Source of the DNA: a virus
Reading direction: 5' to 3' (one strand)
DNA length: 38,454 nt
Virus record (IMG/VR): IMGVR_UViG_3300046516_000176
Coordinates: 1-38,454 of that record
A program made the translations under genes and the position numbers. The first letter of the stretch is position 1. Each line of letters begins with the position of its first letter. Shown here piece by piece: positions 8,929-18,698 of this stretch. The notes below the pieces were generated by a model. That model did no database searches. It was not told the DNA's origin and saw only the letters and a list, made by a program, of their open reading frames with translations.

Positions 8929-9993
8929 ATGAAAAAGATTATTTGCGCATTCATCGCGCTTTATTCGGCTTTCGCGTTTAGCGCAACGCTCAATCCGATT
9001 CAGTTGCTCAATCCTGCGGGCTCCTCGAGCGGTCAAGCTATCGTCTCGACGGGCGCATCGACGGCGCCGACATGGGGCAATGTGACACTCGGCGGATTGC
9101 AGGCGATCGCAGCAAATACCCTCATCGGTAATGCGACCGGATCCACTGCTAGTCCGACCGCGATCACGGTGGCAGGATGCAACGGCGCCGCTCAGGCTCT
9201 GCAATGGACGAACGGATCAGGATTCGGATGCAACTCTTCCGTCGCGACATCCGGTGCGAATACCAATATTACGAGCCTGAATTCCCCCGCGCTGGGCGCA
9301 GCAACTGCTACGACGGCTGCGGCAGGTACAAATACCACCCAGGTTGCCACGACTGCATTTGTACAAGGCATCAACGCTGGTCGGCTGCTCAACGTCCAGG
9401 TGTTCACGTCAAGCGGAACGTACACGCCGACGAGCGGCACGAACAAAGTCATAGTTGAGGTGCAGGCGCCTGGCGGTGGCGGTGGCGGTGTAGCGGCATC
9501 CTCAACGGGGCAAAACGCTATCGCGCAGGCCGGAAGCGGCGGGAGCTATGCAGAGATCTACTGGGCAAGCCCCGCGAGCACGACGGTAACAATCGGCGCG
9601 GTCGGAAGCGCAGGGGCTGCCGGAATAAACGCAGGCGGAACGGGTGGTGCGACGAGCGTCGGGTCCGTTGTTTCTTGCCCGGGAGGGGTTGGTGGGGCGG
9701 GCTCGGCGGGGCAAGCATCCGGCTTCACGCAGAACGGCGCGGCTGCTCCCGCTAATTGCACGATCTCCGGAGCAACGGTTATTCGAAACGTGGCGGGTGC
9801 AACTTCCGCGCCGGTGACGAACATGTCGTCAGCTGCTGCGTATCCGGTGAAGGGTGGGTATGCCGCCATGGGCTACAACACCAATGGCGGCAATGGATCA
9901 GGAGGCGATGGTGCGGCCATCCCCGCCAGCACGGGTGCGGCGGCCGGTATCACTGGGGTTGGTGGGAAAGTCATCTTCTACGAATATAACTGA
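8929..9993 (+). CDS. Gly-rich fibre/adhesin-like protein with a signal peptide (354 aa)
   Basis: Begins with a standard Sec signal peptide (MKKIICAFIALYSAFAFSA, likely cut near residue 19), unusual for a virion protein. Residues 20-165 are Ala/Thr/Ser/Asn-rich repeats of the kind seen in phage tail fibres (LNPAGSSSGQAIVSTGAS, then TNTTQVATTAFVQG). From about 170 a glycine-rich domain follows (VIVEVQAPGGGGGG and many GG/GAG turns), similar to the Gly-rich receptor-binding tips of some phage adhesins. It may be an exported accessory fibre or a cell-surface protein made late in infection. Weak ribosome site (GGGA). The last 96 bp overlap the convergent acyltransferase gene. Confidence 0.7.
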   Translation: MKKIICAFIALYSAFAFSATLNPIQLLNPAGSSSGQAIVSTGASTAPTWGNVTLGGLQAIAANTLIGNATGSTASPTAITVAGCNGAAQALQWTNGSGFGCNSSVATSGANTNITSLNSPALGAATATTAAAGTNTTQVATTAFVQGINAGRLLNVQVFTSSGTYTPTSGTNKVIVEVQAPGGGGGGVAASSTGQNAIAQAGSGGSYAEIYWASPASTTVTIGAVGSAGAAGINAGGTGGATSVGSVVSCPGGVGGAGSAGQASGFTQNGAAAPANCTISGATVIRNVAGATSAPVTNMSSAAAYPVKGGYAAMGYNTNGGNGSGGDGAAIPASTGAAAGITGVGGKVIFYEYN

Positions 9994-11190
9994 TCGACGG
10001 CGCGGCAGCAGCAACTTGCGCATCAATCGCCGCGCCGGCATCTCGAAGTATCGGTGTGTTCCAAGCGAAATCACGGCAATGGCTGCAAGCACAATCAGAG
10101 TGCGCACCGCGATAATCACCAGATTGTCGATAGCCGGCGCAAACGGAGAAGTAGGCGCCGACTTGTCGATCACAATCAGATGCAGCAGGTACATTGAATA
10201 GCTTGCCTCGCCTAGCGCCACTATCGGCGCGACTGAAAGCGGCTTAGGCTCGTAGCGCGCGCAGCAGAACACGATTACGGATATCGCCGGCAACAAGCCA
10301 ACACTCCACACCGCCCGCTGCGCATCGATGCTTATCAACTCGCTGCGAAACACGAACAGGCCGACATTAATCAGGGCGAGCGTGAGCGCGGCCAATCCAA
10401 TGATCCGCTCGCGCAGGGACGGTAGTCTCTCACTGATCGAATTGAACGCTTGCGCAATCGCGCATCCAGTCAAAAACTCAAATACGCGCGGGTATGGAGC
10501 AATGTACTTGAACCAGTCGGAGAAGATCTCGTTTGGTATCGCCAGCGGGTTCTCAACGACGCCGATTCTTGCCGCCAGATAATCAATCGTTGCAGTGTGG
10601 TGCATGATCAGCGACAGCAGAGCGGCTGACGCCACGATGATCACCACGGTGATCGCCAGAGAGTGTCGCCCACCAGCGCGCCGCATCATAAGCAGGCAGA
10701 TTAGCGGGTACGTCAGATACAGAAAAAACTCCGTACTGATCGACCACGCAACGTTCGTGAAGTTGTACGGGAACGCGATCGGATGGTTTCCGACGAAGCC
10801 GTAGAACCAGCTCTGTGTAGCCGTCAGCGTGTACGGCAGCGCGGCGAAATAGCTGGCGCGCTCGTCTGGCTGGTACAAAAACCAGTTTCCGGAACTCACG
10901 TCATACACAATGAGAGCGAGCAGGAGCGGGTAGAGGCGACTGAATCGAGCGACGCCGAAAGCGTACAGGCCGCGAATCGACGTAACCGAGTGCGAGTAGT
11001 TGTAGTGAATGATGAAGCCGCTCATGACGAAGAAGAGCGACATTCCTACAAATGCAAGCTGGTGCATCGATTCGAAGAATGGAACGCCAGTCTTCAGCTT
11101 GAAGAACGTCGGCCACAGGTGATCCATCACGATCGCCGCAGCAGCGGCAAATCTCAAGCCGGTCAGCGCCGGCAGATCCTGTCGTTTCAT
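9898..11190 (-). CDS. acyltransferase family 3 membrane protein (430 aa), O-antigen modification candidate
   Basis: Multi-spanning inner-membrane acyltransferase of the OafA/acyltransferase-3 type, which moves acetyl or other acyl groups to surface sugars. The N-terminus has the family signature LPALTGLRFAAAAAIVMDHL with the catalytic-type His, then MSLFFVMSGFIIHY and about ten hydrophobic helices. The C-terminal 40 residues are charged and encoded antisense to the fibre-like gene (96-bp overlap). Located just after the late genes on the opposite strand, with its own promoter candidate at 11436-11463, it fits a lysogenic-conversion gene altering O-antigen and phage adsorption. It is transcribed with the RMF-like gene upstream. 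Confidence 0.88.
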   Translation of the reverse strand: MKRQDLPALTGLRFAAAAAIVMDHLWPTFFKLKTGVPFFESMHQLAFVGMSLFFVMSGFIIHYNYSHSVTSIRGLYAFGVARFSRLYPLLLALIVYDVSSGNWFLYQPDERASYFAALPYTLTATQSWFYGFVGNHPIAFPYNFTNVAWSISTEFFLYLTYPLICLLMMRRAGGRHSLAITVVIIVASAALLSLIMHHTATIDYLAARIGVVENPLAIPNEIFSDWFKYIAPYPRVFEFLTGCAIAQAFNSISERLPSLRERIIGLAALTLALINVGLFVFRSELISIDAQRAVWSVGLLPAISVIVFCCARYEPKPLSVAPIVALGEASYSMYLLHLIVIDKSAPTSPFAPAIDNLVIIAVRTLIVLAAIAVISLGTHRYFEMPARRLMRKLLLPRRRSVIFVEDDFPTNPSDTGRRTRAGGDGRTIAS

Positions 11191-16810: not shown

Positions 16811-17575
16811 TTAGGCGGTTAGGTCGATTGCTTCGCGCGAGGCGCGGATGAATTCGGCTGCGACTTCCGGGCTGATCGCGTTACCAATGGCGCGCAAGCG
16901 TCCCACTCGACCGGAATTCCCATCAACCAATATCGGAATGTCGTTGACTTGAGCAGGTCCCGGCGGCCAAGGTCCACGCATTGATCGCAAAGGTTCGCCA
17001 CGTGCAGCCGGCCGTTCTTCCCGCGACGCGTCCGATTCCCTTTCCCTGATTCGCCCTTGCCGTCTCGCGTAGTCGGAGTCTGCCACCCACCAAAACCGGT
17101 CTCTTTCCTGTGGAGCGCCGACGCTTGCAACTGGCAGAACCGACGCCCCGCAGGAGTAACCGATACTTTCCAGGTCAGTGCATACAAGGTCGAGCCAAGC
17201 CCTTGCAGCCGGGCTCGTAACCTGTTCCCCATACATCCGGCGAGGCTTTCGCTGCTTGATGAGCCAGTATGCGGAGGGCCATAAGTGCCGCTCGTCAGCA
17301 AACCCTGCTCCTTTGCCTGCCGCGCTGAAAGGTTGACATGGACAGGATAACGTCCAGACTTCGTCGTCTCCCCAGCCGGCGATATTGAGGGCGTAGTCCC
17401 AAAGTCCGATTCCGGCAAACAGGTGAACTCGTCGGTATCCAGCAAGCTCATCTGGAAATACGTCCTCGATAGATCTGTCACAAATTACTCCCGGCGTTAT
17501 CAGGCCCGCGTCCATGAGATTGCTTAACCAATCGCAGCAATATTTGTCGATCTCGTTGTAGAAAACGCCGCTCAT
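16811..17575 (-). CDS. C5-cytosine DNA methyltransferase (254 aa)
   Basis: Transfers a methyl group from S-adenosylmethionine to cytosine in DNA, probably protecting phage DNA from host restriction. Motif I is FAGIG at 53-57, motif IV PCQPFS with catalytic Cys80, motif VI is the variant GEQV at 116-119, motif VIII QERDR at 156-160, and the C-terminal GNAISPEVAAEFI is motif X. The target-recognition part between VIII and X is short, giving a small enzyme. ATG 17575 has GAGG upstream. No restriction partner is seen, so it is an orphan enzyme. About 87 per cent of its length is also open in another frame that encodes a recognisable protein. Confidence 0.9.
   Translation of the reverse strand: MSGVFYNEIDKYCCDWLSNLMDAGLITPGVICDRSIEDVFPDELAGYRRVHLFAGIGLWDYALNIAGWGDDEVWTLSCPCQPFSAAGKGAGFADERHLWPSAYWLIKQRKPRRMYGEQVTSPAARAWLDLVCTDLESIGYSCGASVLPVASVGAPQERDRFWWVADSDYARRQGRIRERESDASREERPAARGEPLRSMRGPWPPGPAQVNDIPILVDGNSGRVGRLRAIGNAISPEVAAEFIRASREAIDLTA
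16819..17481 (-). CDS. overlapping frame nested in the methyltransferase gene (220 aa)
   Basis: Open in a different frame of the same strand, wholly inside the methyltransferase gene. It is not a random shadow: it has the features of a phage protein family I recognise as separately annotated, namely MSLLD at residue 11, NLSARQAKEQGLLTSGTYGP, GSTLYALTWKVSVTPAGR, GWQTPTTRDGKG and YWLMGIPVEWDACAP. GTG 17481 has GGAG 6 nt upstream; ATG 17451 is an alternative. Each motif is the shifted reading of a conserved methyltransferase segment (GLLTSGTYGP from GFADERHLWP), so resemblance alone cannot prove translation. Either an overprinted gene or a widespread misannotation. Confidence 0.45.
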   Translation of the reverse strand: MTDLSRTYFQMSLLDTDEFTCLPESDFGTTPSISPAGETTKSGRYPVHVNLSARQAKEQGLLTSGTYGPPHTGSSSSESLAGCMGNRLRARLQGLGSTLYALTWKVSVTPAGRRFCQLQASALHRKETGFGGWQTPTTRDGKGESGKGNRTRRGKNGRLHVANLCDQCVDLGRRDLLKSTTFRYWLMGIPVEWDACAPLVTRSARKSQPNSSAPRAKQST

Positions 17576-17605
17576 TCCGCCTCAGAATGGTTTCAGGTTT
17601 ATTCG

Positions 17606-18197: not shown

Positions 18198-18698
18198 TTA
18201 TTGATTTCCAGGGTTAGCGAACTCACCATGGTATTCAGCAGCGGCTGCCTTATATGCTTCGTGAGCTTCTTCCTTGGTGTCGAAGTAGCCAATCGTCCTA
18301 CCTTTTCGACTAACTGTGATCCTCGCGCGCCACTTACGGGTTCTCTTAAACCAAGAAACCCCTTTGAACCCTGTCTTGTTACTGGCTGTTTTGCCAATGT
18401 TGAAGTGGTTCTGCGAGATCGTTGCTTCTCGGAGATTGCTAAACGAATTGTTCGATCGGTTGCCGTCTATGTGGTCAATCTGTTTTTTTGGCCAACTCGC
18501 CGTTACAAAGAACCATGCCAAGCGATGGGCTCCATAGATCTGACCATCAATGGAAATATTGATGTACCCATCACTCCCCCACCCGGCAGCGTTGCCAACC
18601 TTGATCCGGTTGTTAATCGGATATTTCCATGTGAAGACACCAGTCTTCTGATCATAGTCAAGAACTTGCAGCAGCCTGGAGTGGGTCAGGGTGAACAT
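18198..18698 (-). CDS. HNH homing endonuclease with AP2 DNA-binding domain (166 aa)
   Basis: Free-standing homing endonuclease. The HNH nuclease core is at about 56-100 (YGAHRLAWF, IDHIDGNRSNN with His76 and Asn80, LREATISQNHFN). The AP2 DNA-binding domain is at about 108-160 (TGFKGVSWFKRTRKWRARI, GYFDTKEEAHEAY). It cuts DNA lacking the gene so that the gene is copied in. It is more AT-rich than its neighbours and sits between recT and the 171-aa gene. The start has GGAG 5 nt upstream and repeats the start of the displaced downstream gene. No intron or intein is seen. Confidence 0.92.
   Translation of the reverse strand: MFTLTHSRLLQVLDYDQKTGVFTWKYPINNRIKVGNAAGWGSDGYINISIDGQIYGAHRLAWFFVTASWPKKQIDHIDGNRSNNSFSNLREATISQNHFNIGKTASNKTGFKGVSWFKRTRKWRARITVSRKGRTIGYFDTKEEAHEAYKAAAAEYHGEFANPGNQ

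Follow-up and report, generated by a model that had tools for sequence, protein, structure and literature searches.

Does a phage methyltransferase gene that also stays open in a second frame encode one protein or two and, if two, do they belong together? The locus lies in a 38,454-base virus record, which is the window analysed here. A reading of the DNA alone (hereafter the sequence-only reading) had placed a C5-cytosine methyltransferase in one frame and, on the same strand, a 220-codon frame with its own GGAG-GTG start, and concluded that either the overprinting is long-lived or a whole database family arose as a frame artefact. Both frames were found as it had described them, and a PF00145 match agrees with the methyltransferase assignment. 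We refer to the longer frame as alpha and to the nested +1 frame, which has stop codons immediately upstream of its start, as beta (Table 1).

Table 1. Coordinates of the alpha and beta frames and their sequence features in the window.
Feature	Position	Strand	Remarks
Alpha, C5-cytosine DNA methyltransferase catalytic chain	16811..17575	-	ATG start, 254 aa; motifs I-VIII and X
Beta, nested +1-frame ORF, predicted recognition/motif-IX subunit	16819..17481	-	GTG start, 220 aa
GGAG, Shine-Dalgarno-like site	17488..17491	-	6 nt 5′ of the beta GTG
GAGG, Shine-Dalgarno-like site 5′ of the alpha ATG	17580..17583	-	read from sequence
Alpha motif I (VHLFAGIGLW)	17399..17428	-	
Alpha motif IV (SCPCQPFS, catalytic Cys)	17324..17347	-	included in the M.HhaI alignment
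Alpha motif VI equivalent (YGEQV, catalytic Glu)	17219..17233	-	included in the M.HhaI alignment
Alpha motif VIII (GAPQERDRFWWVAD)	17078..17119	-	included in the M.HhaI alignment
Alpha motif X (RLRAIGNAISP)	16868..16900	-	
Alpha residues 183-231, predicted disordered	16883..17029	-	pLDDT 30-40; over the beta recognition/IX segment
Beta hallmark LSARQAKEQG-LLTSGTYGP	17275..17331	-	over alpha motifs IV-V
Beta STLYALTWK...TPAGRRFCQLQA, predicted beta hairpin	17122..17193	-	AlphaFold blocks with pLDDT 87-88
Beta GGWQTPTTRD, one WPTP-type module copy	17062..17091	-	module repeated in relatives
Beta motif-IX-like helix RYWLMGIPVEWDACA	16891..16935	-	hhalign to single-chain motif IX

Alpha has the hallmarks of a C5-methyltransferase catalytic chain. 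It matches PF00145 (E=1.2e-15) and PHROG_363 (E=2.9e-62), carries the catalytic motifs IV, VI, VIII and X, and matches M.HhaI from the PDB in sequence; its predicted fold also aligns with that of M.HhaI (Z 13.7, rmsd 3.2, 188 of 327 residues). AlphaFold is confident in the catalytic domain (residues 1-180) and the motif-X helix (residues 232-254), and residues 183-231 are predicted at only about 30-40. When alpha was aligned to single-chain enzymes with hhalign, motifs I-VIII were aligned and motif X weakly so, and neither motif IX nor a small domain was found in the alpha chain, the alignments covering I-VIII and X only.

Beta belongs by profile match to PHROG_1008 (E=2.6e-15) and also matches PHROG_31772. 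Searches with beta gave no match in Pfam or NCBIfam and nothing meaningful in the PDB, by profile or by single sequence. Modelled alone by AlphaFold, the chain is poor (pLDDT 57, pTM 0.22); a helix and hairpin (residues 76-92 and 100-122) are predicted better, as is a short helix at WLMG. All three hallmarks that the sequence-only reading had listed in the nested frame (LTSGTYGP, STLYALTWK and WLMGIPVEW) are present, and its view that they are shifted readings of methyltransferase segments fits the first two, which overlie conserved alpha: LLTSGTYGP (17275-17301) is the shifted reading of FADERHLWPS, and STLYALTWK (17167-17193) that of LDLVCTDLES. It does not fit WLMGIPVEW, which lies inside 16891-16935, where alpha reads PILVDGNSGRVG and is non-conserved, and where beta itself resembles motif IX. 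At the DNA level, the LSARQAKEQG-LLTSGTYGP segment is conserved in Salmonella phages over 84-106 nt at 84-91%.

Both frames are open in 56 IMG/VR loci, with beta always in +1 relative to alpha and an overlap of about 580-1660 nt in the complete loci. Frequent nested-frame stops in homologues with an intact methyltransferase were, for the sequence-only reading, the outcome that would speak against overprinting, and the opposite is seen: among loci picked by alpha alone, a beta ORF is kept in +1 in 160 of 160 (80/80 viral and 80/80 bacterial-genome loci). Stops are scarce in GC-rich DNA, which would favour a chance reading of alpha's residues, but nulls in which alpha codons are permuted among synonyms, preserving both the alpha protein and its codon usage, still predict many. 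For the window, 500 such permutations gave a mean of 6.1 beta-frame stops, and none of them (0/500) left the frame open. Across the whole overlap of 46 loci, 214 beta-frame stops were expected and 0 observed, and in 186 unique loci the +1 frame held 0 stops over motifs IV-VIII against 274.5 expected, while the +2 frame of the same segments, used as a control, held 613 against 581. The LTWK hallmark over motifs IV-VIII occurs in 143 of these 186 loci, compared with 7.0 expected from alpha alone.

Silent sites of alpha tell the same story, a comparison that the sequence-only reading had itself suggested. In 87 disjoint pairs, scored at sites with identical alpha residues, fourfold-site divergence falls from 0.41 before beta to 0.18 over motifs IV-VIII and 0.20 over VIII-X, with ratios to the pre-beta region of 0.38-0.52 and 0.41-0.58, respectively (bootstrap 95% intervals); silent divergence is thus 2.2-fold lower under the beta overlap. 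Neighbouring genes of the same pairs diverge by 34%. Between the beta start and motif IV there is no drop (39%), and the beta N terminus is therefore weakly constrained. For one pair of loci (L025/L028), position 3 accounts for 32% of alpha substitutions, whereas among the neighbouring ORFs the two best conserved have 88-89%. Shine-Dalgarno sites of at least 4 nt precede 49% of beta-frame ATGs and 13.6% of those in other frames of the same segments. Conservation changes hands along the overlap: of 1100 pairs, 1064 have alpha better conserved than beta over IV-VIII and 897 have beta better conserved than alpha over VIII-X, although these pairs and many of the loci are non-independent, falling at 70% identity into 16 clusters, of which two are large. 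Frameshifts or stops do occur in a few relatives (L126, L134, L195, L205, L210, L265, L266, L269 and L270). Judged by these sequence comparisons, beta is not an annotation error and the overlap is maintained across many phages and bacteria; of the two options offered at the outset, long-lived overprinting is borne out by the stops, the silent sites, the LTWK hallmark and the loci picked by alpha.

What beta contributes is suggested by the motif missing from alpha. A beta segment aligns by hhalign to the motif IX of single-chain enzymes (P=3.6e-7, probability 92.9, over just 25 columns), and PHROG_1008 matches the C-terminal part of the single-chain Yorick gp69, residues 249-407, at E=4e-49. 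The window's beta ends in a motif-IX-like helix, RYWLMGIPVEW, and in most loci the W codon of WLMG lies 44 nt before the GN(A/S) of alpha motif X. Beta thus probably supplies the motif IX that alpha lacks, and probably also carries the target-recognition region. In the window this recognition segment is very short, with a single WPTP-type module compared with up to several in relatives, and in the VIII-X region 166 of 176 alpha xLAD motifs share bases with a beta PT/WxT motif. In the variable VIII-X region of relatives such as L008, one repeated block encodes GLADA in the alpha frame and GWPTP in the beta frame. With a core such as GGCTGGCCGACGCC, this block would hold TGGCCG, fitting YGGCCR, the EcoHK31I site, which may be coincidence.

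We consider it highly probable that the locus encodes one split C5-cytosine methyltransferase, a catalytic alpha and a motif-IX beta in two overlapping frames, because alpha has no motif IX and beta contains an IX-like motif that shares homology with motif IX of single-chain enzymes, and because position, spacing and conservation all fit. In this model, alpha would fold as the SAM-binding catalytic domain with motifs I-VIII and X, and beta, translated from its own start and the Shine-Dalgarno site inside alpha, would complete the small domain with a motif-IX helix and a short segment for putative target recognition. The two chains would then assemble into an active enzyme that may methylate the DNA of the phage (or of its host) and so allow evasion of host restriction. 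The poor AlphaFold model of beta alone, the shortness of the motif-IX alignment and the very short recognition segment of the window's beta are counterpoints to this model.

Beta could instead have arisen de novo as a protein unrelated to the methyltransferase, such as an inhibitor or an anti-restriction protein, that merely shares DNA with alpha. The lack of a Pfam or NCBIfam match would suit such an origin, as would the N-terminal half of beta, over motifs IV-VIII, for which the tests made revealed no clear counterpart in single-chain enzymes. We nonetheless regard it as unlikely, given that the beta C terminus aligns with single-chain motif IX, that PHROG_1008 spans beta and the single-chain C terminus, and that motif IX is consistently absent from alpha, with position, spacing and conservation as a split enzyme would have them. 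Programmed ribosomal frameshifting, which would join alpha and beta into one chain rather than separate products, is very unlikely: it could draw on the existence of single-chain relatives and on indel variants with motifs I-VIII and IX in one ORF (L266, L351 and L358), but beta has its own start, Shine-Dalgarno sites are enriched, and motif X remains in alpha and would therefore be lost by a single shift. That alpha is the sole protein and the beta family a shifted reading of its conserved residues is hardly credible, and this frame artefact is rejected even though LTSGTYGP and STLYALTWK do overlie conserved alpha segments and many database records annotate only one frame, since 0 stops are seen where nulls predict 214-274, LTWK is not forced by alpha, alpha silent sites are constrained under beta, and VIII-X is better conserved in beta.

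A split C5 methyltransferase of this kind has precedents among characterised enzymes. M.EcoHK31I, which recognises YGGCCR, is a two-polypeptide C5 methyltransferase, and M.EaeI is a similar case; in both, the small gene lies inside the large one and is read in a different frame. The small gene of the window is likewise nested in another frame. The larger polypeptide of M.EcoHK31I holds motifs I-VIII and X and the smaller one motif IX (PMC3404938), the distribution seen in the window, where alpha has I-VIII and X without IX and the smaller chain, beta, supplies IX by the 25-column alignment; the comparison is with the published motif distribution. The two differ in that the predicted recognition domain of M.EcoHK31I is placed in the larger polypeptide (PMC3404938), whereas conservation suggests that the recognition part lies in the window's beta, a further counterpoint to the assignment made here. 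M.AquI also pairs a catalytic chain with a second chain that bears motif IX together with part of the recognition region, but its split falls before IX-X, leaving motif X in the small chain (PMC3404938), whereas in the window X is in alpha. The pair is therefore probably an M.EcoHK31I-like split C5 methyltransferase in a large, poorly annotated phage family, as far as motif content can tell. A precedent for motif IX in a smaller polypeptide is thus known, which the sequence-only reading did not mention; the literature searched, mostly without subscription papers, contained the EcoHK31I and AquI precedents and no description of this phage overlap. Through the beta homologues, no EcoHK31I/EaeI-like restriction-modification plasmid was found among the entries examined, which were in phage-like contexts or plainly named 'DNA cytosine methyltransferase'.

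The closest single-chain counterparts considered are Yorick gp69 (Mycobacterium phage) and Rabbitrun gp78 (Gordonia phage). Their catalytic part is homologous to alpha, and they share a WMMG motif IX and a GNG/GNA motif X; Yorick also has LPTP-type repeats, as in the alpha/beta family. Unlike the window pair, they carry IX and X in one frame (EWMMGWPAGW is motif IX in Yorick gp69), and a shorter +1 ORF persists in some single-chain enzymes.

By tblastn, beta is found in 210 phage records and alpha in 407. Gene 58 of phage N15 also contains a nested frame. Depositors annotated both frames in Escherichia phage K1ind3 (ORF30/ORF29) and Paenibacillus phage Redbud (gp50/gp51), which have the same alpha/beta +1 overlap as the window but larger recognition regions. 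Even these records miss the pairing, Redbud gp51 being named 'g50 internal gene' and K1ind3 ORF29 'Mte8-like'. The annotation of one frame in other records fits rules that penalise overlaps, as stated for Paenibacillus phages (PMC6070908). In Pseudomonas phage PMG1 (L301), beta is the sole long annotated gene and alpha is split in two ORFs, so that the public annotation shows half an enzyme.

Relatives of Redbud beta include nested alpha/beta pairs, AquI-like pairs whose +1 ORF holds the recognition region, IX and X (L348, L362, L365 and L367), and single-chain enzymes (L364 and L370). Indel-shifted forms also occur (L266, L351, L358, L134, L195, L265 and L269), with recognition/IX or X in another open frame: either motifs I-VIII are fused to IX, or the beta ORF carries X and a third frame carries IX. 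Pseudogenes, sequencing errors and functional rewirings could each account for such forms. The +1 frame over motifs V-VIII keeps a conserved 'FSxTWPxxGxMxxGxxYELPTS...SSLPTP' domain in several single-chain enzymes, while in others it is interrupted by stops before that domain. A hairpin-like +1 domain of this type (TWPxSGMxxxG...LPTP) was noted in L295 (1904-2437), L326 (1688-2209), L364 (2007-2498) and L370 (2435-2953), and in L310-L324.

We tentatively propose, at somewhat less than an even chance, that dual coding is obligate in much of a superfamily of phage C5 methyltransferases, with a conserved partner domain encoded in +1 over V-VIII even in single-chain enzymes (Yorick, L325, L326, L364 and L370) and the recognition modules and IX hopping between the two open frames by single indels. 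If so, one DNA block could be rewired among one-chain, EcoHK31I-like and AquI-like forms with neither half lost. In any case, the computational evidence settles that the beta family, a phage protein family in competition with methyltransferase annotations, is real. We predict that the annotations of many phage 'orphan' C5 methyltransferases cover half an enzyme, which would seem inactive if cloned from the annotated frame alone. The hundreds of loci form a large natural data set on the two-frame co-evolution of one enzyme's subunits and on the shifting of subunit boundaries by indels.

The window further encodes terminase, portal, major head and tail proteins, an integrase, RecT and an exonuclease. 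Among the ORFs scanned, none near the alpha/beta pair was identified as a restriction enzyme gene, and the pair therefore looks like an orphan phage methyltransferase. Protection of phage DNA against restriction by the host is the usual role of such enzymes. An HNH endonuclease gene (18201-18698, minus strand; PHROG_99, E=6e-69) lies two genes upstream of the methyltransferase, and an AP2-domain gene lies near a Klebsiella relative (L377). An O-antigen acetylase-like gene at 9901-11190 on the minus strand (PHROG_3333/6705) is a possible lysogenic-conversion gene.
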